A model generated the notes under the pieces. The model did not search any database. It saw only the letters and a program-made list of their open reading frames with translations, and was not told the DNA's origin. 64,000 nt of DNA from Thraustochytrium sp. TN22 (lineage: Eukaryota; Sar; Bigyra; Thraustochytrida; Thraustochytriidae): assembly GCA_013306675.1 (NCBI GenBank), contig JABLUY010000041.1, forward strand, positions 62,001 through 126,000, written 5' to 3'. Of the stretch, positions 36,779 to 52,575 are shown piece after piece. A program made the position numbers and the translations under genes. The first letter of the stretch is position 1; each line of letters opens with the position of its first letter.

Positions 36779-38010
36779 ATGCCGTTCGTCAAGAAGCAGA
36801 AGACCAACGCGTACTACTCGCGCTAGTAAGTGGGCTCGGGCGACGTGGAGATGGAGAGATGAGATGAGCGCGATGGGGCGCGCGGGCTGGTTGGCTGGCG
36901 GGTGGACATGCACGTGCAGGCGGGAGAGGACGCCGGCGGGGGAGCACGCCACGCCACGCCTCGCCGCGCCGCGACTCGCTGCGCGATGACGCTCGTCGCA
37001 GAGGATGGGAGAACTGACGGGACGCGTGATTGCTGCCGCTGCACAGCCAGGTCAAGTACCGCCGCCGGCGCTCTGGCCAGACGGACTACTACCAGCGCAA
37101 GCGCCTGGTGAAGCAGGCCAAGAACAAGTACAATGCCGCCAAGTACCGCCTGGTGGCCCGCATCACCGGCAAGCAGGTGATCGCCCAGGTCGTGTACTCG
37201 ACCATCGCCGGCGACCACGTGCTCGCGTCGGCCTACTCCAAGGAGCTGGCCCGCTTCGGCTGCAAGGCCGGCTACAAGAACTACGCCGCCGCGTACGCGA
37301 CCGGCCTCCTGTGCGGCCGCCGTGCTCTCAAGAAGGTCGGCCTCTTCGAGCAGTACACCGGTGTCGGTGATGATGAGGAGGACGAGGTCACTGGTGAGAT
37401 CATGTCAGTGTCCTTCAACAAGCGCACTTTCTACGTTGATGAGCTCGACGAGGACCGCCGCCCGCTCCGCGTGAACCTCGATGTCGGTCTGGCCCGCACC
37501 TCGCTCGGCGCCAAGGTCTTCGGCGTGCTCAAGGGCGCCTCGGATGCCGGCCTCGATATCCCGCACAACCACAAGAAGTTCCCCGGCTACGACAAGGATG
37601 AGAAGGAGTACGATGCCTCCGTCCACAAGGAGCTGATCTTCGCCGAGAACATTGCCGAGTACATGCGCATCCTCGAGCAGGAGGATGAGGAGTCCGGCAC
37701 GAAGACTCTTCAGGAGCGCTACGCCTCGTACGTCGCGGCCGGCGTCGGCGCCGACGACCTCGAGGAGATGTGGCTCGCCGTGCACAAGGCCATCCGCGCC
37801 GACCCTAGCTACGCCCACGATGAGCCCAAGCAGGTGCGCGCCAAGAACGAGACGCACGACAAGAAGTACAAGCACCCGGCCCGCAAGACCAAGGAGGAGC
37901 GCGATGCTTCCATCAAGGAGAAGCTCGCCAAGATCGCCGCCATGGAGGGCGATGATGACGAGGAGGAGTTCGAGGAGGAGGAGGACGACGATGAGGAGGA
38001 CGAGGAGTAA
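36779..38010 (+). CDS. RPL5: 60S ribosomal protein L5 (uL18), two exons
   Basis: Cytosolic large-subunit protein that carries 5S rRNA. Exons 36779-36825 and 37047-38010 give 336 aa. The 221-nt intron starts TA/GTAAGT and ends CACAG/C, so that the split tyrosine codon is restored in SRYQVKYRRRRSGQTDYY, the conserved N-terminal block. Other conserved parts: RLVARITGKQVIAQVVYSTI, NYAAAYATGLLCGRRALKK, LDVGLARTSLGAKVFGVLKG, then LDIPHNHKKFPGYD. Compared with human RPL5 (297 aa) it is longer, mostly through the acidic tail that ends with about 25 Asp/Glu. The first exon is only 15 codons long, a common place for introns in ribosomal protein genes. Confidence 0.97.
36826..37046 (+). other. RPL5 intron
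   Basis: 221-nt GT-AG intron with the consensus donor GTAAGT, interrupting codon 16 after its second base. Confidence 0.93.
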
Positions 38011-38455
38011 GTGCTCCGCTGTCCTTATTGCCGTTGCTGCCTTTGCCTACATTTTAAACCATGAAGGTATTGTCAGTGCTTCCCTGAGCATTTGAGTCTT
38101 GCAAGCGGCTTCCGTGGTGCCAGTCTGCACGTGGTGTGATTTTGCGCTGCTGCCTGAGAAGCAGCGTTTTCAGTGATCGGGCTACTCCTTCGCTTGAAAA
38201 AAGGTCAGGTCTTGCCTGCATGAATGGGGGAAATCACGAGGGAAAAATCTACCAAGCTCTCGATGGGAAAACCCTCGCAGTTTCGATCCTTCATCAAGGC
38301 AGAACTCTTTCGCTCGCCGCGCGGCGAGCTGGGAGGGGTGCGGCACGCGGCGCGCTGGCGTTGCGGGAGGGGCGGCGTCGAGGCGGCGGCTGCGGCGGCG
38401 GCGGCGGCGGCCACTCCGCAGGTCGTTGAACGCACGGCGACGCGGCTTCGGCACC
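38011..38455. other. Region between RPL5 and the transposase ORF
   Basis: It includes the RPL5 3' region and the transposase 5' leader. The only TTAA (the PiggyBac target site) is at 38054-38057. No terminal inverted repeat matching the 3' side is visible. Confidence 0.5.
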
Positions 38456-41400
38456 ATGCGCCTCGATTCAGACGAGGGAGATGAGTATGACATCCTCATG
38501 AACGAAGAATATGCAGCTTTCGAGGATGAAGGCATGGTTTTCGACGCTGGTGACGTTGATGGTGAGGCAGCGGCCGAGGCGCCCGAGGCAAGCGCGGCCA
38601 GCGGACTTGATGCCGACGCGGCTCTGTCGCACAGTACACACCAGGAGTCTGCATGGGCATACGTGGATCCTGTGGGCTCTGCAACGGGACGGCGTGTTAG
38701 CCTCTTTGTCGACGATGAAGTCAAGCGCGATGACCTGCTGCGGGACGTGGAGCAAACAATCGAAAATCTCCGCACGGAGCTCCTTGCGGAGGGGGTGCAG
38801 GAGGTGGACGTCGGAGGGTTCGCGCCTGCGCTCGGTCTCTGGCTCAAAAAGACCGAGGTGCTGACAACACTTTACATGCAGGTGAGGACGACGTTGTCTG
38901 CTTGCAATGACAACATCGAAATGGACGAGTTTGGCTTGTTCGTCTACCACTACCTCCGAATGAGCGCGCTCAGGATGAGCCCTCACACCTACTTTACATA
39001 CTTTGGAAGTGCTGCGAGCAGGTCCAAAAACACCTTTCCCACTCTGGCTCAGCCTGTCGAGCCTTTCGATCAGAAGCGCTTCAACCGCATCCTCGGCGCA
39101 CTCGATCCGAAGCCCCAGCCCCCGGGACAAGGGGCTGCTGCATTCGATGATGATGCTCGTGGGCAGCCGTGCGAGTTTCCGACGCCCTCCTCCGGGCAGT
39201 GCGGATATGACCCTGTGTCGCGTCTCATGTCCAGCTTCGCAGAGTTCGCCTCCAAGGTGAGCGTCACGCTCGACTCTGTCCTATTTCTCGATGGTGACGT
39301 TTTTCGCCGTGGTGGCCACCGCGTCGCCGCGTCGTCCGGGATGCACCTGTCCAAGTCAGGGAACAAGTTTGGCACACCCTGCGATTCACTCTGCTCCATC
39401 GGGTCCGGACTCGTCGTGTCCGAGGTGCTTTCTCGGGCACAGACTCGTGAGCCTGAGGCGCATCGCGTGATGCGCTGCCTGGAGCCAGTGCGCGAGCGTC
39501 TCTCTTCGCTGCGACACAACGTGCACGACGCTCCCACCTTGGTCCGTATTCCAGTAGCTCTAGACAGAGGCTACAACTCGCAAGAGCTGACCGATGAGCT
39601 TCTCAAGGCCGGCTTCCACGTGCTCGGCACCCACAAAAGGGAGAAGGGGTTTCCTTTCGCCTTCGCGGAAAATGCGAGCAGCTCCACCCCGCCCGAGGCT
39701 CTCGTTCATTTCGACCAGCCAGCCATGGTCAAGTGGGCCAAGCGAACGATCGCGGGCCAGGCAGAGTGGGCCCTGGGCTACAACGACGGGCGGGGTAATG
39801 GAGTGCTACTTCACACTACCATTCCGGAGCTCGGGCCAGGCAGTTGGGCATCCACTCCTCGCTCAAGGCGGAATGCGCGCAGCACTTTGGTCGATGTTCC
39901 GTCAACGGCGCTGCAGCAGCAGCCTCACACTCCTCCGGCAACCCGTGCAGTGGACGCTGGCGGCGCCAGCTCGAGGCGCCCGACTGAGGAGACCTTGCTC
40001 ACCCCCAACTCTCATGCGGCCGACGACGGCAGCCCCGGCGTTGACGAGGAGGAGCACATCCCCGCGAGCGCAGCATTTGAACACGCACATGCGAGACACG
40101 TCCAGATCACGGCCGGCCAACGGGACCAGGCTTGGTTCTGCCTCCGCTTTGGCAGGATGACTTCGACCTCGTTCCTCCGGCTTCTCGCTGCGTTGTCGAG
40201 CAATCTGAAGCTGCAAGCTGCCTCAGATGTCTCTGGCCCCGCACCGGCTCGCACCTTGGCCGAGATGCATGGGTTCCTGCCTGATGGACTTTCTACGGTG
40301 GCGCACGGACTCATCAGCACGGTCGGCGCCGCCCCGGAGCTGAGTGCATCTACCCTCGGATTCGACGTCACCGACCCAAAAGAGCTCGCCAAGCTGAGCG
40401 ACCAGGATGAGCTCCTCGCCATGACCAAGAAGCAGCTGCACCATCTCGTTACCAGCTTTGGCATCGACAGGTTCAGCATGGCGTCCCTGACCAAGGAGCA
40501 GCTCGTTGACCTCGTGTTGAGCGCCACGGAGAACGACCTCATGCGCTCCTGCCTCTCCGCGGCTGTGCTGAAGCCGCTGAAGGACAACACGTCCCTGGCC
40601 ATTGGCAGAGAGGCCGAAGACAAGGTGCGAGAGCTTCTCCCCAGGTTCCTCGTTGACAACAACTTTGCCTCTCACGCAGTCACCTCGGTCGACATCGGCC
40701 TCGTGCATGCCGTCGGCCTTCAGGGCCACGCTACCTCCATGGACGGCATTGTCGTGCTGCGTGGCTGCCCCTTCCACGGCTCCGACACCGTCCCGGAAAA
40801 GCATTCCGTAGGCGACCTCGCCGGCAGCATGGACAACGTCCTTGCCCAGGACCGTGCCACCTTGCGGAGGCGCCTTGAAGATGTCAACGACGCTGCATTC
40901 CGCCACGCAGAGCGGGCGTGCGAGACCCTCGGAGACATGGTTTGTGCCGCTATCGAGATCAAGACGCACAGCGGCAAGAGCGCCGTGGAGACGGCGCATG
41001 CGCTGGCGGCCCTGCACGGCAGAGTCAACGCGGTCCACCTTGATCCCCGCGCGGATGACTTCGAGGACAACGTGGTCCAGTTCAAGAAGCTCATCCCGGA
41101 CAAAGGACACCGATGCCAAGTTCTGCAGCACTCCGCTGGCGGAGTGCAAAACGTGCTTTACGCAGTCGCAGTCGCAAGCATCGATGGTCGGCAGCAAGGT
41201 ACCTCCATTGCGCGGATTGTTTGGGTGCAAATGGCCCCGCAGCTCATCTACCATCACGCACTCCTCGTGGGCTTCGTCTCTGAGCACTACATGCGTTGGG
41301 CGTACGACCTGTCAAAGAGCCCGCCGGCGGATGATCGACTCTCGTTCTACCGGCCTTGGCGCATCACTGCTGGGCGCACCCTGATGATGCGCGAGTCCGC

Positions 41401-42487
41401 CATCGCCATGCTCTCCGTTCACAGCACGACTGGGGCGCCGGTCGAAGCCATGAAGGCGCTCAAGCCACGCCTTGTTCACTGGTGGACCACGACCAAGTGG
41501 GCCACGGATCGAAAGTGCGAGCGCCTCGAAAGCATCCAGCCAGAGATCTTCAAGTTCTGGCCGTCCCCAACCGCCCGTTGGCTCCTTCGCCTCCTCTCCA
41601 CCTGCGTTCTTAACGCCGCGACAACGGCCCAGCTTTTCCAAGCGACCGAACGCGCCGGGGGTATCGCCAACGTCAAGAGCATGCGCCACCTCGAGAGCTT
41701 GCGCGCGCGTGTGGGAGACGTGACGGACTTCATCCTCCGCCTCAAGTACGAGGAGTTTGTGCGGTGTGCGATCCCTCGCGCCCCGTCCCCTCGCAGCGAA
41801 GCGAGCGTGCGCTGGCACAACGGCACCGCGTCAAAGGATGCGCAAGGCCGCATGTACTTCAAAGAAGAGCTCTGGGACCCGACGAACAACCCCACCCAGC
41901 GCGATCTCCTCAGGAACGCCATGGACGAGCTGCGCACGGCGCAGAAAAGGCCACGTTTCGGCCAGCTTATCGCGCTGCTCGAGACCCAGCCCATCCTGAT
42001 TTTCCTGCGCCAGACCGCGGCACTGAGTCCACACCTTGCACGTAGCGATCTCGGGTCCGCAGCAACCATGCCATGTGTTCTTTGCTGCAAGGCATGCGGC
42101 CGTGAGTCGTCTCGAAAGTCGGCGCACCGCCAGCCGAATCAGTCCGCGTTCGCGTGCAAGGACTGCGTCGGCGTGGTCCTATGCTCCAAGCCTCAGAAGA
42201 TGTGGGGAAACATCTCGTGCTGGGAGCTGTATCACTCGGCCAGCATCGACGCGGTCTGGAAGGGCAAGCTGCGGTTCTGTCGCAACGACGACTTCACCTC
42301 TGGGCAACCGTTCAAAAGGAAGGACAGAGACGATCATCAACCTGCAACCAACGCTCCAGGAACGCCTCCGTTCCTCGTAGATATAGAGACGAACGAGTCC
42401 TTCACCCCCAAGATGCGCGAGGCATCCAACGAGCGTCGCATGTCAACCAGCAAGAAACGCAGGGCCGAGGACAACGACGACAGGTAG
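38456..42487 (+). mobile_element. PiggyBac-superfamily DNA transposon coding region with inserted YqaJ-like nuclease
   Basis: A 1343-aa uninterrupted frame. N-terminal acidic region; then DEFGLFVYHYLRMS..TYFTYFG, matching the PiggyBac pre-catalytic segment. The candidate catalytic aspartates are D273 (VTLDSVLF), D370 (ALDRGYNSQELTDELL..GTHKREKGFP, like D-N-x-Y-T-S..GT.R.NRKG.P) and D444 (GYNDGRGNGVLLHTT). From about 555 to 905 comes a YqaJ-like PD-(D/E)XK exonuclease: R556..W..R.GRMTSTSF, G717-x-E719, D763 (SMDGIVVL), E834-x-K836 (AIEIKT), then QVLQHSAGGVQNVLYAV. A SAP-like helix pair (LLAMTKKQLHHLVTSFGID) sits within it. The PiggyBac helical part resumes (KPRLVHWW...VLNAATTAQLF) and the cysteine-rich C-terminus ends CWELYH at about 1260. 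GC is visibly lower than in the neighbours. No flanking TTAA pair or inverted repeats were found, so it may be a fixed or domesticated copy. Confidence 0.85.
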
Positions 42488-42953
42488 AAAGGCGGTCGCC
42501 ACATAACAGATTGACTCTGTCCCTTGCCCTTTTGGCCTCCAGAGGGTGTCTCCCGATTTTAGGAGGAACGAGTTGGGGGGGGGGCAAATCTAAGCAAAAG
42601 GAGACTCTGGCAGCGTCAGGGATTGCACACGGCCATCACCGCAATGAGCCGGATGGCCGCTGCAAACCTTTCGCGCCCGTGCATCAGTGTCATTTCAATC
42701 AACGAGAGTCTGGTCAGCTGCTTGACGTTTCTTTACAGTCAGATTTCTTCCATTCTAACTAACGAACGAACAGTACCCGTCCTGAGAGCAGCGTTTCCGT
42801 CCCACCAAGGTACATGAGGCTGGCAGTGACGACACTGGCCATGTCATCACTGGCCATGTCATTTCAGGCCACATGTCATCACTGGCCATGCCATCACAGG
42901 GCCACATGTCATCACTGGCCACATGTCATTTGGCCATGTCATCACTGGCCATG
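42488..42953. other. Convergent intergenic region with minisatellite
   Basis: It follows the transposase stop. There is a run of nine G at 42577-42585 and a 15-bp minisatellite from 42832. I looked for TTAA and inverted repeats belonging to the transposon and saw none. Confidence 0.55.
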
Positions 42954-42970
42954 TCATCGCTGGCCATGCA
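42832..42970. repeat. 15-bp minisatellite, GGCCATGTCATCACT unit
   Basis: About nine degenerate copies (GGCCATGTCATCACT, GGCCACATGTCATTT and so on) run through the 3' end of the next minus-strand gene and contribute its last codons and stop. Confidence 0.9.
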
Positions 42971-43937: not shown

Positions 43938-45759
43938 CGCGCACGCGCGCGCGAGTGCCGTGCGGTGCGGTGCGAGTCTGGTTGGTCTTGGTGGTGCCCC
44001 GCATCCTTCACAGCATGGCATCATCAAGCGTCGTGGTCAGATCGTCGGCCAACCCACGGCCACCGTGTGCGGCGACTGGGATGGGAACGCGCGGCGAAAG
44101 AACCGCGCTCGACCCTTTACATCACTTCTCGCTGGCAAGCGAGTGGCACCGGGTGTCAGTGCCAGTGAGTGAAGCCATCCGCCCCCGGCCGAAACTCCTG
44201 CGTTTTGGCCGCCTGGCCGCGGTGGCGTCTCCGAGTCGAGGTCCGCCCAAGCCCGGGGCGTACGTTCGAGTCATTCCGGGTCTCTCTGGCAGTGACCATG
44301 CTACAAAACGTAGTAGCCTAGAGGCTCAGCATAAGCGTAGTCGACTCACCTCATAGGCGTCTCCGCAGTAGCAACGTCGTGGTCTTGTTGTCCCGCTCCG
44401 CAAGGGAGCTGACTCGCGAGTCGAGTTGCGCATGCGTGCAGTGAAGTTGATGGATGGCTTTCATTCTCTCTCAGGCTGTCACCGTGACCGTGACGCGCAA
44501 GTGCGCTCGTCCTCGGCTTTGGACATGACACCATCCTGGGTCGCTGTCCGGAGTTTGCTTGCCAAGAACGGACGGCGAGCATTGGCGAGGACGAGGCTGG
44601 GAGGGAGTCTGACATTTGCGCCAAGGCACGAGCCTTTTCAAAGAAACAACTCAAAGAGACGGGCTCTGGACACAACTCGCTAGCAGCATCTCAGAAACCA
44701 CCAGTCATGGCCTCGAGCTCGCGCTCTCTACTTCGCACCCCCATCGCGCTGGGCCTTTCTCTCTTTAGGACGTAAGTTCGAGATTCTCTGCGAGCGCCAC
44801 GGTCTCTTCTCCGCATCCGCATCCGCTCCACACCGCTCCACATCCGCTCCACATCCTTCCTTCACATCCTCCACACGAGCGTCAGATTGCAGCACGCAAG
44901 CAAGCCCTCCGGGCCGGGCCGGTTCGTCCAGTCTCGCACGCAGCCGCCTCCGCCTCCGCCTCCGCCTCCGCCCTGCTCGCTCGCTGCGTTCCGCCTTTGC
45001 CGGCCTGGGCGACCACCTCGCGCTCGTAGCCTCGGTCCCGCGCGCGCTGGCTGCGCTGCGCCCCGGGCCCACTGCGCGGAACTCCAGTGGGGCGCCGGCC
45101 TCGCGTCCCCCCCGCGCGGCCCTCTCGCGCCCGCGGCCTCCCCCTGCGCCTCTGCGGTCCTGCCCCCCCGCCCGCGCGCAGTGGGGGTAGGGGGGGCGTG
45201 GGGGCGGCGCCGCGCAGGGGAGGGAGGCCCAGTGGGGCGGCGCCTGGCCCAGGCCCGCATCCAAGTTCGAATTCGAATTCAAATTCAAATTCAAATCGCG
45301 CCGGCGCCGCGCCAGCAGGCGCGCGGAGGCAGTCGGCGCCGCGCGCGCGCGCGCGGGCGAGCTCGCGCCGCGCCGCGCCGCCGCGCTCGCAGGCGCGCGA
45401 GCGAAACGCCAGCCAGCGGAGTGGCCCGCCGGCGCGCCGCGCAGACCGCAGGCAGGGTCGAAGGGGTCTCCGCCGGGTACGAGCGCGAGAGCGACACGCC
45501 GTCCACGCACGCCCAGGGCGACGCCGCGCCGCGCCGCGCGAGGAAGAGGGCGAGGAGACGCGCGCGGCGCGCGAGAGGCGGCGGCGCGCGCGAGGCGGCC
45601 CGCGCGGGCCCCGGCGCGCGGCGGCGCGAGGCCGAGGCGCGGGCGGGTGATGCGCAGGGGCTGAGGCCGGCGCGACGGGCCCGCAGACGCGCAACCCTGG
45701 CGCGGGCGCGCTCAGGGTCTCGCGCGCGCGGGCGCGGCGCGGGCGCGGGCGCGGGCGCG
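43938..45759. other. Long divergent region upstream of the CEP350/TRM-like gene
   Basis: It contains small palindromes (CTACAAAACGTAG near 44310; TAGCCTAGAGGCT near 44318), a GCTAGC at 44681, and a frame continuous with the large + gene from 44887 but without an ATG until 45760. A hexamer array of AATTCG/AATTCA lies at 45267-45296. I see no supported gene; a non-ATG or spliced 5' extension of the large gene cannot be excluded. Confidence 0.45.
45267..45296. repeat. AT-rich hexamer array (TTCGAA/TTCAAA)
   Basis: GTTCGAATTCGAATTCAAAT followed by TCAAATTCAAAT: five hexamer units of low GC standing inside very GC-rich leader DNA. Confidence 0.8.
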
Positions 45760-48700
45760 ATGGCGGGCGTGGGCGCGGGCGGCGTGCGTGGGCGGCGCGT
45801 GTCGGACGAGGAGGTCGCGGTGCGCGCGCGGGGGCGCGCGGCCGCGGCCGGCGGCGACGGCGGCGCGGCGCCCCACGGGCCCAACGTCGCCGCGGGCTTT
45901 GATGGGGGCAGCGGCGGCGCTTCGCGCGCGACGCGCGGGCCCGCGGCGGCGGCGGCCGGGGAGGTCGCCGCGGCAGCGGCCAGAGCGGAGGCAGCAGCGG
46001 CGGCGACGCGGGACCCGGCGCAGGGGCGGAGGGCCGCCGTGCGCCGCATCCGGTCCGCCAAAGCGCAGGCAAACGCTCTGGAGGCGCGGCGGTTGCGCGC
46101 GCGCGAGGAGAAAGCACGCGCCGCGCGCGCCGCGCGCGAGGAGAAGGAGGCTGCCACGCGCGCGCGCGCAGACGCTGCTCTCCGGCGGACCCAGGCCGAA
46201 GCCCACCGCGCTCGCGTGGAAACGGCAGAGGCCGAGGCGCGCCGCGCGCGACTCCTCGGCGCGCAGCACGACACTGTCCGCAGGCTCAACGCGCCGGCGG
46301 CGCAGGCGCGGCAGACCATGCAACAGCAGCATCAGCAGCAACAACAGCAGCAACAGCAACAGCAACAGCGCCGCCATGCCGCAGCACTTCACCAGCAGCA
46401 CCAGCTTCGTAAGCCCTCGGTGCCGCGCGTCGCGCGACCTGGCCGTGGCGTCAGGCGCGCTCCGCAGCACGAGCACCGGCCCGTGCTGCAAAGCAAGCCG
46501 CCCCTACCGGCGGCGGCTCGCATCCCGGCGCCCGCGCCCGTCGAGCGCCACGAGGACCGCGTCGTTGGCACCCACGCGCAAAAGGCCGTTTCCGAGGAGG
46601 AGCGCCGCGAGCTGCTCTCCTTCATGCGCCGCCAGCGGGCCAAGCGCAAGCAGGAGGAGCAGCGAGAGCAGCTGCGCCGCGACGAGGAGAAGCGCCACCG
46701 CGTTGAGCAGCTGCGCGGCCTGCAGGAGCGCGCCGCGGCCAGCGCAAGTGCCGGCGCCGGCGCCAGCGCCGGTGCTGGCACCACCGCGCAGCGTGCGCAC
46801 CAGCGCAAAGAGCGCGTTCACGCTTCCAGCCCTGTCACGGCGCGCTCGCGCCTGCACTCGCGCTCGCACACACAGTCGCACTCGCACGTACACTCGCACG
46901 TACACTCGCTCTCACACGCGCGGAGCGGCGGTTTGCAGGGGCGCGCGCTCGGCCCGCGCTCCACCATGGCGCTCGACCACGAGGCCTTCATGATGGGCAG
47001 CCCTCGCGCCTTTCCGCACGCGGCCCCGGAGACGGATGAAGACGGCAATGGCGGGCCTGGCGCCTCCATGCACACCTCCATGGCGTCCTCCGAGACGGGC
47101 GATGCCAGCAGCGTCAGCAGCGGTCTCAGCCCTGCCACCATGAACGCTGTCCGCCGCGAGGCGCACAAGGTGGCTCGCGCCATGGTGGCGCAGGCTCAGG
47201 CCAAGCGCGCACTTCTCGCTGCGGGGCCCACCGAGGAAGACGAAGGCGACTCCGAGCAGGAAGACCAGCAGGAGACCGACCCTACAGTGCGCCTTGCACG
47301 CCTCAACGAGGCCGCCCAAATTGCGAGCGCGCGCCTTGACCTCCTGCAAGCCGGCCAAAACGCGAAACCACCCGCTCGGTTCGGCGAGGAAGGCAAGGAA
47401 GGCGAGGAGGACTCCAATGACTCCGACGAGGACTCCCATGACTCGGACGGGAACTCCGGCGACTCCGACGAGGATGTTGAGGATGGTTCCGGGAGTGCTC
47501 CGGCGGTCAATCTGAACGATGGGGCAGACCGCTTCGATGCGAACCTCCCCACGGAGCAGCAGGACCCCATCCCCAGGCTCGAGCGGGACGCTCAGCGTCT
47601 CATGGCGGAGATGCTGCGCGACGCGGTCGCGCGAGACCCCGCTCTTCGTGGTCGTGCTCACGTGCCGGGGACCGACACGCCAGGGAAGCTTCCCATCCCG
47701 CTTCACCCGCCTGTGCTCGCCAACCTGCGTATGGCTGCGGCAACACCGCGCGACGGGACCCACCGTATCCCGGTACCAGATGAACTCGAGCACTACGTCA
47801 AGAAGAAATCCTACGGCATTCTTGACCTGTATGTGGCGCGCAAGGCTGCTGCGCGACGCGCCGCAGCAAATGCTGAGGATGACGACGCAGAGGTCGACTC
47901 CAAGCGTGACGAGCTGGATCGTCTTGCGGCGAACGAGGACTCGGAGCACTACGATGACGACCTCGAGAGGGAGGACGATCTTGGGGCGTCTGTTGACAGC
48001 CACGACCATCACCTGGGCCGAGGATGGCCGGGGCGGACGGAGGACGTCGACGACGAGGGCGATGGCCTCGCACGTGCATCCGTGCAGTCCACGTCCAAGT
48101 GGGACGATGCGCTGCTTGAGGTTCCTGCGGAAGACGCCTGGCCCGTGCTCAACACGACTACGGCCCCGGCCCCGGCTCCGGCCCCGGCTCCGGCTCCGGC
48201 CCCGGCTCCGGCTCCGGCAAGCATTGAGGTCGAGGCGGCTGCGGAGGACGAGATCGACCTTGGCCTTCCTGCGTCGCCCTCAGCCCCGCCCACCCCGCTC
48301 TCGACGGTGGAGGCGCCGGGGGGGGCGCCGAACGCGGCCCACAACACGGAGAACCTGCGCGAGCTCTCGCCTGCCTCGCTGCGCCGCAAGCTCCTCGCGA
48401 ACGTGAATCTGCTCGAGTCGCTGGAGATGACCCACCAGCAGCTCAACGAGCTCGAGCACGCGCAGGCGCTCACTCTGGCGCAGCACGAGACGGCGTCGCT
48501 TGTACAGCAGTGGGACGAGGAGCGCCGGCACGCCGCCGAGGTTGCCAAGCTAGCCACCGTCCATCAGGCGAGCGCGGACCTCGTTGAGGCACGAACGGCC
48601 GAAATTCGCGAACACGTCAACGCCGAGGCGCAGGCGCAGATCCGCGCGGCTGAGGATCGCGCCAATGCCATGGCTGCTGCCGTGGCCGAGGCGCGCCGCC

Positions 48701-51700
48701 ATGAGTCTGCCGTGCAGACCGAGCCCAAGGCCGTGCACGAGGCGGCTTCCGAGGCCGTACCCGTGCCGCAGCGTGACGCTGCGGTCTCTGTCGCAGAGCG
48801 CACGCCCGACTTGGAAACGCATGCTACCTCGCCAATGCCACAGCAAGCTTCGCGCGCCACCTCGCCCGTTGGTCTCATGCATCGCGATGGCGAGCAGGAC
48901 CCGCAGCAGCAGACGCGGGAGCATGGGCGACAGCAGCAGCAGCAGGAGAAGGAGGAGGAGGAGGAGGAGGAGGAGGAGGAGGAGGAGGAGGAGCGCTACG
49001 ACACGGAGTTTAGCGCGAGTGGGTTTCTGGATGCTTCCAGCAGTCACGCGCCCAAAGCACTTGGCACCAGCGCCGCTGGTCGGCACTCAGAAGACGAGAT
49101 GGAAGACGAGGTTGAGGATGAAGTGGAAGATGAGATGGAGGATGTGATTGAAGATGAGGTCGATGATGAGGTCGAAGATGAGGTCGAAGATGAGGTCGAA
49201 GACGAGGCCGAAGATGAGGTCGAAGATGAGGCGGAAGATGACATTGAAGATCAAGTCGAGGAATACTCCAGGGATGACTTCAAAGACGAAATGTCTGCAG
49301 AGTCGGCGGAGTCGGTGCTGGACTCCGGCGAGCTGGATGCGCAGTCTCGCAATACGGAGTTTTTGAATGTACAGCTGCCGGTGGACGAGATGCGCGTCAT
49401 GCGCGAGGTGGTGCCGGACGAGTCGTTCCTGCGAGAGGAGAATGCCTCGGACGAGGACCGGCAGAGCATGGCGTCGGAGGGCTCGTTCCGTCTCTTCACC
49501 AAGAAGCTCCTCAAAACATACCGTGAGGATGCGGTGACGCGCCGCAAGCACGAGCAGGAGCTCCTTCGCATGCGGGAGCAGGCGCTGCGCGAGAAGACAC
49601 GGGAGCAGCTCAAGTGGCTGATCCATCAAAAGAAGCTCATGATCCAGTGGGTGCACGACAAGCGTAAGAAGGAGCTGGCTCAGCAGCAGCAGCAGCAGCA
49701 GCAGTTCATGCTGGCCGAGTCGGCGCACGAGCATGCGATGGTGGCAGGGTCTCCACCTTCGTCGTCGCCGCGTGCCAAGGACATTCGCATGCCGACGCCA
49801 CGCGAGATCGAGGCGAGTCTCGAGATGGAGCGGCGCAAGATCGAGACGGTGTTCAAGATGAACAAGGCAACGATTGAGAGCGAGCGCGCGGCGCTCAACG
49901 AACGCTTCTACAAGGAGGAACTGAACTACCGCACGCACAAGCGCAACCTGCGCCGGCTGTACCAGGAGACGCAGGCCCTGCGCGAGCGGCGCCACGAGGC
50001 GCATGCGCCGCTCTCGTCGCCGGAGCGAGACGCGGTCTTCTTCAAGGCGGCAACCTCGCTGCTTGGGGCGGCTGCTTCGCCCCTGTCGGACTCGCCGTCG
50101 CGGACACCCATCTCGCCGGGCATGCACCTGGACGAGGACCTCCGCGCCATGGCCTCGGCTCTCTCCAGCGCCGTCAAGGAGGTGGAGAAGTCCGGATCGG
50201 ACCGCGCCAGCGACTACGAGGAGGACTTTGAGTTCGCCAGTGAGCCGAGCCCGCGCGCCGCCGTGGTTGTCATCGCGGACGAGGTCGACGACGAGGAAGA
50301 AGTCGAGGAAGAGGTCGAGGAGGACCAGGAGGACCAGGAGATCGCCGAGGAAGTCAGCGGCGGCGACGACGAGGAGGAGAAGAACGAGGTCGCCCTGGAG
50401 GTAGACGACGACCTGACAGGCTCGGTACGCGCGGCCTCGCTTCAGGAGGACTTCTCCGCGGCCGACGACGCGGAGGATGCAGACATGGAGGTTGCCTCGG
50501 ATGAGGAGCTGCAGGAGCGCGAGACGGACGCCGGCACGCGCAGCCTGACGGCCTCAGTCCTGGCATCGGAGCTCGACGAGGATGCGCCTGCGCATGCGCA
50601 TGCGCACGCGGCCTCGGCCTCGGCCTCGGCGAGCGGCGGCGCGACAACCTCCTACGAGGAGACCTTTGAAGACGAAGTCGAGGATGCGCCTGAGGTGGTG
50701 GCGGTGTCCGCGACGCGCGGGTTGGAGCGGCCTGTTTCGCTGGCGTCGGCAGCGTCGGATGCCGAGCCGCAGTCCGCGACTCACGCCCTGCAGCAGAGCG
50801 TGGAGCTGCGCCAGGAGCGCATTTCGGCGCTGGAGGCAGCGCTCGCAGATAAGAAGGCGACCCTGGAGAAGCTACGCGAGAAGCAGACGCTTCGCACGAC
50901 CCACAAGGAGCAGCGCCTGGCGGAGCGCCAGCTGGAAAAGGCCATCGACGAGACAGACCGCGAGATCGCCGCCCTGGAGCAGGCACTGGCGGCGAGCGTA
51001 AGCAGCCTCTACTCGGAGGACTTCGGATCCGGTTCGGCCGTGTCGCCGCTCGTGCAGGACGCCGTGCCAGTGACGGATGACTGGGCGCAGCTGGATGAGC
51101 GTGCTGCGGCGGGTAGCAGCAACTCGGGCGGCGATGGGGACGATGATGGCTTCGACGAATCTTCGGTCGCGCTCCTGGAGGCTGACGCGCCTCCGGTGGC
51201 GGCGAGGGAGGCTGCTGCGGACAATGAGGACGCCCTGCTGCCCGAGGAGGACCGGGACGGAGGCGAGGACCCAGAGGTGGCCGGGATGATTGCGAATCTC
51301 GCAGCAGACTCCTTCGCGAGCGTGGAGGAGCAGGAGCAGGACCCGGGCGATGATGCGCTGCCCCGCGAGCGTGCTCCGAGCCGCGCGGGCGCGGCGGTGG
51401 TGGACCGCGGCGTCGGAACGCAGGATGACGATGAGGAGAGCGCGCGCGCCGCACAGCGCGCGCGCAAGGCGAAGATGGCGGACGACATCACGGCACTCCT
51501 GCTTCCCGAGTTGCTGCAGCAGGCCATGTCGGGCGAAAATGTCGCGCGCCCAGAGTCCGCGAGAGCGGACGAGCAGAATCCCGAGCTGATGCAGCGGGCC
51601 TCGTCGGGCAGCGTCGCGGCGCGCCCGGAGTCCGAAGAGGCGGGCGACCAGCAGCCCGAGACTCGGGACGAAGAAGAGGATGAGGACGAGGACGAGAATG

Positions 51701-52575
51701 ATGCTGCGATGGAGGTGGACGAGCTGGGAGAGGCGCCTGAGAGGGCGGGCCCACACGAAGTGCCGCCGGAGAGCGTGGGTTCGGAGCCGGAGCCGGACCA
51801 CGAGGAATTGGACATGGGCATGCCGATGGAGCAGGACGAGGAGGAGGGCTTCCTCGACTGGACGCCGTACACGGAGATTTATGTGCGGCGGCTCTTGGCG
51901 CTCGTGGAGGAGCGGGACGGGATGGCGATGCTGTCTGAGTGGAAGCAGGCGGCACGCATGCAGGGCTCCGGCGCGGGAGAACCGCTGGATGTGGAGCTGT
52001 ACCTGCACCTGGAGCGCCGGGACGACAACCCGGAGTACCTGCAGATCAACAACAAGATGGTGTTTGACCTGGTGAACAGCGCCTTGGAGGAGATTCTGCT
52101 CGGGAGGCGGCCTGGGGCGGATGCTCCTCCTGACGACGACTCGGCAATGGCTGCGTGGGCGCAGCTTCCGTTCCGGCAGGCGATGCGAGCGCAGGCGCCC
52201 GTGCCGCCCATGGCGGAGCTCACGGACCTCGTGCTGAAGCGGGTGCTGCGCTGGGACCGCCTCGAAGCAGGCCCCAGCGTAGTCCCAGTACTATTGAGCC
52301 GCGGCGGCGAGGGCGGCGCCGTGGCGGGTCTCGAGGCAGCCGGTCCGGGCGGGTACAGCCCGGGTCCGACGCTCTGGACCATGGACGTGTATGAGCGCAT
52401 GGAGCACGTGATTGCCTCGGACCTCATGGACCGAGACGAGGAGTGGGCGCAAAATGAGCGCGAGGAGTTTGACGTGATCGCCAAGGTGGCGGACATCATC
52501 CTCGATGACCTCGTCAAGGAGACGGCGCAGTATTGCGACTCGCTCTTCTCGGCCAGCGCTGCCGCCAAGGAGTGA
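45760..52575 (+). CDS. CEP350/TRM-like giant coiled-coil protein with C-terminal DUF4378-like domain
   Basis: A 2271-aa single-exon protein starting at the first in-frame ATG (MAGVGAGGVRGRRVSDEE). It is mostly charged coiled coil and disordered sequence. Features in order: Ala/Arg/Glu helix, polyQ near 190, His/Ser repeats (SHTQSHSHVHSHVHS), a coil (LRELSPASLRRKLLANVNLL then THQQLNELEHAQALTLAQHE), a Glu run, about 14 EDEVED units near residue 1115-1165, a basic coil (KTYREDAVTRRKHEQELLRM), repeated D/E-rich patches each with a YEEDFE or YEETFE motif, and a C-terminal domain of about 240 residues. In that domain VFDLVNSALEEIL, LVLKRVLRWDRL and VADIILDDLVKET match the DUF4378 pattern of plant TRM and animal CEP350 proteins, which recruit the FOP/TON1 centrosome-cortex machinery. 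The family call rests on this domain and the overall layout; it is not proven. Confidence 0.6.
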   Translation: MAGVGAGGVRGRRVSDEEVAVRARGRAAAAGGDGGAAPHGPNVAAGFDGGSGGASRATRGPAAAAAGEVAAAAARAEAAAAATRDPAQGRRAAVRRIRSAKAQANALEARRLRAREEKARAARAAREEKEAATRARADAALRRTQAEAHRARVETAEAEARRARLLGAQHDTVRRLNAPAAQARQTMQQQHQQQQQQQQQQQQRRHAAALHQQHQLRKPSVPRVARPGRGVRRAPQHEHRPVLQSKPPLPAAARIPAPAPVERHEDRVVGTHAQKAVSEEERRELLSFMRRQRAKRKQEEQREQLRRDEEKRHRVEQLRGLQERAAASASAGAGASAGAGTTAQRAHQRKERVHASSPVTARSRLHSRSHTQSHSHVHSHVHSLSHARSGGLQGRALGPRSTMALDHEAFMMGSPRAFPHAAPETDEDGNGGPGASMHTSMASSETGDASSVSSGLSPATMNAVRREAHKVARAMVAQAQAKRALLAAGPTEEDEGDSEQEDQQETDPTVRLARLNEAAQIASARLDLLQAGQNAKPPARFGEEGKEGEEDSNDSDEDSHDSDGNSGDSDEDVEDGSGSAPAVNLNDGADRFDANLPTEQQDPIPRLERDAQRLMAEMLRDAVARDPALRGRAHVPGTDTPGKLPIPLHPPVLANLRMAAATPRDGTHRIPVPDELEHYVKKKSYGILDLYVARKAAARRAAANAEDDDAEVDSKRDELDRLAANEDSEHYDDDLEREDDLGASVDSHDHHLGRGWPGRTEDVDDEGDGLARASVQSTSKWDDALLEVPAEDAWPVLNTTTAPAPAPAPAPAPAPAPAPASIEVEAAAEDEIDLGLPASPSAPPTPLSTVEAPGGAPNAAHNTENLRELSPASLRRKLLANVNLLESLEMTHQQLNELEHAQALTLAQHETASLVQQWDEERRHAAEVAKLATVHQASADLVEARTAEIREHVNAEAQAQIRAAEDRANAMAAAVAEARRHESAVQTEPKAVHEAASEAVPVPQRDAAVSVAERTPDLETHATSPMPQQASRATSPVGLMHRDGEQDPQQQTREHGRQQQQQEKEEEEEEEEEEEEEERYDTEFSASGFLDASSSHAPKALGTSAAGRHSEDEMEDEVEDEVEDEMEDVIEDEVDDEVEDEVEDEVEDEAEDEVEDEAEDDIEDQVEEYSRDDFKDEMSAESAESVLDSGELDAQSRNTEFLNVQLPVDEMRVMREVVPDESFLREENASDEDRQSMASEGSFRLFTKKLLKTYREDAVTRRKHEQELLRMREQALREKTREQLKWLIHQKKLMIQWVHDKRKKELAQQQQQQQQFMLAESAHEHAMVAGSPPSSSPRAKDIRMPTPREIEASLEMERRKIETVFKMNKATIESERAALNERFYKEELNYRTHKRNLRRLYQETQALRERRHEAHAPLSSPERDAVFFKAATSLLGAAASPLSDSPSRTPISPGMHLDEDLRAMASALSSAVKEVEKSGSDRASDYEEDFEFASEPSPRAAVVVIADEVDDEEEVEEEVEEDQEDQEIAEEVSGGDDEEEKNEVALEVDDDLTGSVRAASLQEDFSAADDAEDADMEVASDEELQERETDAGTRSLTASVLASELDEDAPAHAHAHAASASASASGGATTSYEETFEDEVEDAPEVVAVSATRGLERPVSLASAASDAEPQSATHALQQSVELRQERISALEAALADKKATLEKLREKQTLRTTHKEQRLAERQLEKAIDETDREIAALEQALAASVSSLYSEDFGSGSAVSPLVQDAVPVTDDWAQLDERAAAGSSNSGGDGDDDGFDESSVALLEADAPPVAAREAAADNEDALLPEEDRDGGEDPEVAGMIANLAADSFASVEEQEQDPGDDALPRERAPSRAGAAVVDRGVGTQDDDEESARAAQRARKAKMADDITALLLPELLQQAMSGENVARPESARADEQNPELMQRASSGSVAARPESEEAGDQQPETRDEEEDEDEDENDAAMEVDELGEAPERAGPHEVPPESVGSEPEPDHEELDMGMPMEQDEEEGFLDWTPYTEIYVRRLLALVEERDGMAMLSEWKQAARMQGSGAGEPLDVELYLHLERRDDNPEYLQINNKMVFDLVNSALEEILLGRRPGADAPPDDDSAMAAWAQLPFRQAMRAQAPVPPMAELTDLVLKRVLRWDRLEAGPSVVPVLLSRGGEGGAVAGLEAAGPGGYSPGPTLWTMDVYERMEHVIASDLMDRDEEWAQNEREEFDVIAKVADIILDDLVKETAQYCDSLFSASAAAKE

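Follow-up and report, generated by a model that had tools for sequence, protein, structure and literature searches.

P0001, an uninterrupted open reading frame (ORF) in a 64,000-nucleotide stretch of the Thraustochytrium sp. TN22 genome (contig JABLUY010000041.1, positions 62,001 to 126,000; referred to as the window), is tentatively explained here as a single-copy, host-resident gene that descends from a PiggyBac transposase. In the encoded protein, a divergent YqaJ-type (lambda-exonuclease-like) PD-(D/E)XK nuclease would take over the position of the PiggyBac insertion domain, preceded by the second catalytic aspartate (Asp) and followed by the third. The frame (38456-42487, forward strand) comprises 1343 amino acids (aa) counted from the ATG at 38456, its candidate start codon, and 1429 aa from stop to stop. 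The window sits in contig C353 of an assembly of 453 contigs and 37.9 Mb, in which P0001 is found at one place, and a paralog on another contig, P0002, shows the same layout. This frame, its single place, the layout common with the paralog and the motif statistics given below are direct observations. An earlier interpretation of the letters and ORFs of the window (the sequence-only reading) had described P0001 as a PiggyBac transposase with a complete YqaJ-like nuclease inserted in it, all in one uninterrupted frame at these positions. The open-frame translation agrees with the latter point.

PiggyBac-like core and site of the insert

The statistics support the view that P0001 resembles PiggyBac transposases beyond the level of the controls, the similarity being very divergent. 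In HHalign comparisons with a PiggyBac reference composed of piggyBat, piggyBac and three PiggyBac-like proteins from the same genome, residues 91-480 gave P=0.00084 and were collinear over 147-463. This N-terminal part scored 33.6; the highest control scores were 18.1 (79 further segments of window ORFs) and 22.3 (100 shuffled sequences). A chain of six ungapped blocks derived from piggyBat and piggyBac scored -11.3 on P0001, whereas 300 shuffles averaged -39.4 and reached -15.9 at best. For the four blocks that precede the insert, P0001 scored -8.6, the best of 500 shuffles -12.9 and, among 85 segments, the best one outside the gene -17.2. The PiggyBac-derived identity proposed by the sequence-only reading is favored by these comparisons, whereas the Pfam scores fall short of it. 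The DDE_Tnp_1_7 match that it had suggested looking for is present at residues 293-424 (E=0.011), but with 15.5 bits it stays under the cut-off of 22.4; a shorter piece of P0001 matched DDE_Tnp_1_7 (E=0.0097) and DDE_Tnp_1 (E=0.038), both also under cut-off.

Among the putative catalytic residues, D370 can be firmly aligned with the second Asp, in agreement with its earlier listing as a catalytic candidate. Its block scores 9.3, the next best place in the protein -3.6, and HHalign sets it opposite the Asp of piggyBat MDNYYNS. For the first Asp there are two candidates. The ungapped block begins at 274, with neither D273 nor D279 exactly opposite an Asp. HHalign favors D273, the residue chosen in the sequence-only reading, but D279 fits the following RGG given a one-residue gap and is a possible alternative. 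The third Asp had been assigned to D444. This residue was rejected, as it lies in a strand block and HHalign pairs it with a Ser of piggyBat, and D1018, after the insert, is the likelier candidate judging from the alignments. Nowhere in the protein does the block of the third Asp score higher than at 1007-1025, and the best place of the next block is directly after it.

This assignment bears on where the nuclease-like region lies in the protein. In piggyBac (triad D268/D346/D447), the catalytic domain at 263-457 is interrupted after the fifth strand by an insertion domain (372-433), D447 lies on the helix that follows this domain, and the place of the interruption is topologically that of other DDE/D transposases with such domains, according to PMC7351741. 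If D1018 is the third Asp, the YqaJ-like region lies between the second and third Asp, inside a split RNase H fold. It would then sit at the end of the native PiggyBac insertion domain and not after the catalytic core, which we consider the better assignment. The sequence-only reading had instead put the insert behind the catalytic core, ahead of the C-terminal helices.

PiggyBac Cys-rich domains vary in layout and bind DNA or histone H3, as stated in PMC8086355. The corresponding end of P0001 carries C1207, C1210, C1211, C1214, C1234, C1237, C1243, C1255, H1260 and C1275. The terminal Cys-rich domain ending in CWELYH, claimed in the sequence-only reading, is present as a Cys/His block that aligns with P0002 and P0003, a second relative, but without a profile match: this end has no match in Pfam and is not one of the two zf-Tnp_2 places of the genome. 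Matches to zf-Tnp_2 were obtained for P0003 (E=0.0027) and P0002 (E=0.038), both under cut-off.

The YqaJ-like insert

The motif statistics support the identification of residues 540-945 as a divergent YqaJ-like PD-(D/E)XK region, with predicted fold and activity. In a chain test, four of five YqaJ motif blocks were recovered in order: QRDQAWFCLRFGRMTSTSF (26.7), IGREAEDKVRELL (2.0), GHATSMDGIVV (6.1) and AIEIKTH (7.0), the bulk of the score coming from motif I. The total of 35.3 was equaled by none of 1000 shuffles (mean -10.6, standard deviation 6.0, maximum 10.7). When 117 segments taken from window ORFs were scored in the same way, 13.3 was the highest value for any without overlap with the insert. 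Gap limits were identical for observed and control sequences. The YqaJ profile contained 39 sequences, namely 36 of 80 loci (44 were dropped, near-duplicates being thinned by eye), two solved structures and the stand-alone YqaJ protein of this genome. HHalign gave P=0.0021 for residues 555-580, and its score of 29.6 was reached by none of 79 ORF segments (maximum 23.0) or 100 shuffles (maximum 22.8). In hmmsearch, the 39-sequence profile recovered motif I alone, again at residues 555-580 (E=0.011 with 8 targets, under the inclusion threshold).

The motifs were found where the sequence-only reading had placed them: Q555..W..R..GRMTS, G717..E721, S-M-D763-G, E834-I-K836, RC-Q888-VLQ and the C-terminal CWELYH. 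We presume that the catalytic E, D, E, K and Q of lambda exonuclease would correspond to E721, D763, E834, K836 and Q888. The helix pair within the region had been called SAP-like. This was not confirmed by Pfam, which yielded no SAP match on residues 640-715 (the nearest family being Ish1), nor does the pair coincide with any of the 29 listed genomic SAP places. Positions of all features are given in Table 1.

The genome also contains a stand-alone YqaJ gene on contig C78 (L008:1288-2142, forward strand; Pfam E=1e-21 in one search and 2.1e-22 in another). Its tblastn matches fall in 225 phage records, and the eight listed are 31-39% identical over 56-70% of its length.

Table 1. Features of P0001 and its upstream neighbor in window coordinates
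Feature	Position	Strand	Evidence or remark
60S ribosomal protein L5 gene, upstream neighbor	37030..38010	+	Pfam Ribosomal_L5e E=4.1e-64
Whole P0001 frame, 1343 aa, putatively PiggyBac-derived with YqaJ-like insert	38456..42487	+	Sole full-length match in own genome
Residues 147-268, helical, resembling first half of PiggyBac dimerization/DNA-binding domain (IEMDEFGLFVYHYL, RFNRILGALD)	38894..39259	+	HHalign collinear with piggyBat across 147-463
Residues 269-480, predicted first part of RNase H-like catalytic domain	39260..39895	+	Weak Pfam matches and block chain test
D279, possible first catalytic Asp (alternative D273 at 39272-39274)	39290..39292	+	Block test and HHalign differ
D370, second catalytic Asp by alignment (IPVALDRGYNS...VLGTHKRE)	39563..39565	+	Block test, HHalign
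D444, third Asp of the sequence-only reading, in strand block 440-458 before insert	39785..39787	+	Opposite piggyBat Ser (HHalign)
Residues 481-539, low-complexity linker leading into insert	39896..40072	+	Sequence
Residues 540-945, YqaJ-like PD-(D/E)XK region	40073..41290	+	Motif chain test; HHalign 555-580
YqaJ motif I, QRDQAWFCLRFGRMTS	40118..40165	+	Own YqaJ profile, HHalign, chain block 26.7 bits
Residues 640-695, helix pair within nuclease-like region	40373..40540	+	Called SAP-like earlier; Pfam Ish1 E=0.14 only
E721 of G...E motif	40616..40618	+	Chain test, block score 2.0
D763 of SMDG	40742..40744	+	Chain test; E in paralog P0002
E834-I-K836, E-x-K motif	40955..40963	+	Chain test; K836 is V in paralog P0002
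Residues 1001-1130, probable resumption of PiggyBac core with helix of third Asp and the helices after it (VHWWTTTKWATD, WLLRLLSTCVLNA)	41456..41845	+	Best whole-protein place for both PiggyBac blocks
D1018, better candidate for third catalytic Asp, aligned to piggyBac D447	41507..41509	+	Block test, HHalign; V in paralog P0002
Residues 1131-1290, putative PiggyBac-type Cys-rich C-terminal domain	41846..42325	+	Alignment with paralogs P0002 and P0003

Relatives of P0001

Two relatives were found by tblastn in the same genome, P0002 on contig C340 and P0003 on contig C436. P0002, taken as 1289 aa, has the full P0001 layout; the two proteins are 29% identical, or 31% over 526-1286 by tblastn. 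The N-terminal part of P0002 was missed by tblastn (as a query, that of P0001 matches only its own gene), and the global alignment of the two N-terminal parts was as good in none of 500 shuffles. Since the layout, including a similar N-terminal part, is common to both proteins, the fusion probably predates the duplication that produced them, both frames having stayed open. P0002 sits in a gene-dense contig among ordinary-looking frames; we take its neighbors to be Lsm14-like and phospholipase-like frames. It is substituted or gapped at D273, D279, E721, D763, K836, Q888 (S) and D1018, while D370 and E834 are kept. The P0002 frame (L014:4699-8901, on contig C340) may have a more upstream start, which would give 1400 aa and an overlap with the 5' part of an opposite-strand frame. 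In P0003 (382 aa; L003:1378-2526, reverse strand), a polyglutamine-rich half is followed by the Cys-rich end, the sole part of the P0001/P0002 layout that it has.

Three more PiggyBac-like genes score over the Pfam cut-off, without the insert: P0004 (2.4e-35), P0006 (7.4e-20) and P0005 (5.8e-15). They occupy loci on contigs C398 (L004), C16 (L005) and C76 (L006), each gene being found at one place, a count that is a lower bound. In the alignment set by HHalign, all three keep the first Asp and lack the second, and P0004 alone has an Asp at the third place. By these alignments, P0001 alone among the members found may have the complete set of three Asp. A fourth, weak DDE_Tnp_1_7 place (L007, C151:43502-43777, reverse strand; E=0.012) is under cut-off, and the long frame listed at this locus could not be recognized as encoding a PiggyBac protein. 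Outside the genome, searches of the viral_contigs and genome_contigs collections returned 23 and 22 pattern matches, respectively, with no relative in either. The PDB, searched at E<=10, gave no match for the P0001/P0002 profile or for residues 969-1300.

The family bears on an alternative that we consider somewhat unlikely, namely that P0001 is a PiggyBac-derived DNA- or chromatin-binding protein with a non-cutting DDD core and an insert that is either an active nuclease or a structural relic, working in the manner of PGBD1/PGBD2 in humans or of PgmL subunits. Use without catalysis seems widespread among these genes, with P0003 retaining only the Cys-rich end and P0004, P0005 and P0006 lacking the second Asp. 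Likewise, P0002 has lost most of both catalytic sets with its frame still open, and in P0001 itself the first and third Asp are weakly placed. However, each of the three places in P0001 has an Asp there or close by, and the E, D, E and K of the nuclease motifs are present as well; the paralog has lost most of these residues. Such a set would be unexpected without use.

Evidence against a PiggyBac-YqaJ protein

Several results weigh against the explanation of P0001 as a PiggyBac descendant with a YqaJ-type nuclease. First, none of its family scores reaches the curated Pfam cut-off. The HHalign result for the N-terminal part becomes weaker in other settings: P=0.0045 with only the two solved proteins as reference, P=0.0061 with the paralog P0002 added, and 0.051 for the latter against the two solved proteins alone. 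Local alignment of the N-terminal parts of P0001 and P0002 was equaled by 4 of 500 shuffles for 1-530, by 3 of 500 for 100-480 and by 19 of 500 for 200-480. For the block pair of the third Asp, 35 of 2000 shuffles scored as well; in four settings, HHalign gave this part P=0.12, 0.3, 0.43 and 0.82. Second, Pfam YqaJ, tried at E<=1 and E<=10, does not match P0001, whereas the stand-alone YqaJ protein of the genome, used as a control, is matched with E=1e-21. The second YqaJ block scores only 2.0, the fifth (Q.Q) was not recovered (it was placed at 922 with -6.5, away from QVLQ), and 71 residues separate D763 from E834, versus 10 in the stand-alone protein. Third, the gap limits of both the PiggyBac and the YqaJ chain tests were fixed after the spacing had been seen. 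Fourth, AlphaFold runs without alignment gave unusable models for residues 105-1300 (mean pLDDT 35.4) and 540-975 (mean pLDDT 36.2), so that neither the RNase H fold nor the nuclease fold has model support. Finally, the GC content at third codon positions (GC3) of P0001 is 0.74, lower than in 18 of 19 comparison frames, several of which are unverified ORFs (0.79-0.95 in those 18, 0.66 in the remaining one). A later arrival of P0001 than of its neighbors would also be possible on this basis; the divergence from P0002, at 29% identity, speaks against a recent one.

It is rather unlikely, in our estimate, that the insert is some other domain with similar short motifs and not a YqaJ nuclease. No weighty match was obtained in Pfam, PHROGs or NCBIfam: for the insert, PHROGs returned weak matches to endonuclease VII (0.14) and to a family that has no assigned function (0.058), and NCBIfam one unrelated match (0.072). 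A search of phage records with the insert hit 4 records, the best match (E=0.008) falling under an annotated ATPase and the rest under virion RNA polymerase. The strong agreement is confined to motif I, the spacings are long, and the motifs are missing from the insert of the paralog, whose chain score is -14.9. Such a domain would nevertheless have to produce four of five motif blocks in order, at a level not seen in 1000 shuffles, and an HHalign score above all ORF segments and shuffles. The YqaJ-type PD-(D/E)XK assignment of the sequence-only reading is retained on the strength of these ordered blocks, if without a Pfam match, whereas the epithet complete is dropped, given that missing match and the unrecovered fifth block.

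Host gene or mobile element

P0001 looks like a host gene rather than a mobile element. As in domesticated PiggyBac genes, there is a single copy, the frame is intact and element ends are absent. The 5' flank matches elsewhere solely through a GC-rich stretch (query 311-420; 36 rows including its own), and the 3' flank has no match elsewhere in the genome, in a search that skips simple repeats and hence does not prove uniqueness. No pair of TTAA was found; there is one at 38054 on the left and none between 42488 and 44900. Exact inverted 10-mers number 8, three of which form one overlapping run, versus about 4.5 expected. Two inverted pairs that span the gene, I1 (44 nt, 73%) and I13 (13 nt), were considered as element ends and rejected, as their arms fall within genes: the L5 gene, in its acidic-codon tail, and the opposite neighbor. 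Overall, there are no convincing terminal repeats around P0001. The sequence-only reading had suggested that the nuclease processes ends during transposition or clears rival copies. With no sign of a mobile element, these roles are less likely than a host function.

A live or recent transposon with an end-processing nuclease inside its transposase, a one-protein counterpart of ISL2EU, is for the same reasons very improbable. The intact frame and the low GC3 would suit it, and ISL2EU provides a precedent (PMC4482050). Against it stand the single place in the assembly, flanks unrepeated beyond the GC-rich stretch, the missing TTAA pair and terminal repeats, and an old paralog residing amid ordinary-looking frames. 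That an assembly error or a frame coincidence joined unrelated genes is extremely improbable and largely refuted, as no point in its support was found and P0002 has the same order on another contig at 29% identity.

Possible function and comparison with known systems

According to PMC7351741, loops of the piggyBac insertion domain line a channel filled by target DNA. A nuclease at this place would be near the DNA being cut or joined, and by analogy its position suggests a cut-and-resect enzyme. The helical domain and the Cys-rich end might hold a DNA site or a chromatin mark, the DDD core might cut the DNA, and the nuclease, kept on the DNA next to the cut site, could resect the exposed ends for recombination or repair. 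The catalytically decayed paralogs may serve as structural partners, as the PgmL proteins do for PiggyMac in Paramecium. Both folds and both activities in this scheme, as well as the partners and the biological process, are what we infer for P0001. A more specific version appears decidedly unlikely at present: that a non-ciliate protist has a set similar to Pgm/PgmL, with one catalytic and four or five decayed members, in which the catalytic member, with a resection nuclease in its active-site fold, makes and resects a programmed or induced break that serves recombination, for instance during sexual development or gene conversion.

To our knowledge, none of the human PGBD1-5 proteins contains a YqaJ domain, unlike P0001. 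As proposed for P0001, these are single-copy PiggyBac-derived host genes, and their triad is not always full, as described in PMC6143343. In Paramecium, PiggyMac (Pgm) works with the PgmL1-5 proteins, which lack the full triad, PgmL4 keeping the first and third Asp only (PMC6143343). The combination of one full triad with several decayed ones would be paralleled here by P0001 versus P0002, P0004, P0005 and P0006, and the Asp pattern of P0004 is that of PgmL4. In contrast to P0001, Pgm is presented in the relevant parts of PMC6143343 with no mention of a nuclease domain, and programmed DNA elimination is not known in the host of P0001.

With piggyBac of T. ni and piggyBat, P0001 shares, in its predicted layout, the order of helical domain, first Asp, second Asp, strand, third Asp and Cys-rich end, and the insertion domain of piggyBac likewise lies between the second and third Asp (PMC7351741). 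However, where those proteins have the end of a short beta domain, P0001 has about 520 residues with the YqaJ-like region; moreover, it is single copy, has no TTAA pair or terminal repeats, and shows very low sequence similarity to them. The ordered motifs W..R..TS, G...E, S-x-DG and E-x-K link the insert to the YqaJ/lambda exonuclease family, from which it differs by long insertions between motifs, by the lack of a Pfam match and by being embedded in a protein derived from a transposase.

DDE transposases and nucleases have been paired in transposons before. ISL2EU elements (PHIS superfamily) combine a DDE transposase with a YqaJ exonuclease; unlike in P0001, the latter is encoded in a second, separate frame, the transposase is of PHIS type, and the elements are mobile with an AT target duplication (PMC4482050). 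KolobokP is a eukaryotic element that pairs a DDD/E transposase with a nuclease, but its transposase is of Kolobok type, its nuclease is a downstream His-Me finger enzyme, and it is mobile (PMC9587614). Among the papers listed, no title or opening of an abstract describes a YqaJ domain inside a PiggyBac protein; eukaryotic protein databases were outside this search, and such proteins may already be on record unnoticed. If both domains are active, P0001 would represent a DDE/D enzyme with a nuclease as its insertion domain, combining cutting and resection in one chain, and it would indicate that a whole second enzyme can be accommodated at the site where the RNase H fold of transposases carries its insertion. 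Decayed paralogs in the same genome would also make the idea of mixed catalytic and structural subunits, as in Pgm/PgmL, testable outside ciliates.

Neighboring features

The 60S ribosomal protein L5 gene adjoining P0001 upstream indicates that the host is a eukaryote and that P0001 lies on a eukaryotic chromosome. On the other side, a tandem repeat of about 15 bp (CACTGGCCATGTCAT; 8.7 copies, 42833-42968) separates the 3' end of P0001 from the next gene. A frame of 2562 aa at 44887-52575 (forward strand) has a DUF4378 match at its C-terminus (E=7.5e-10).

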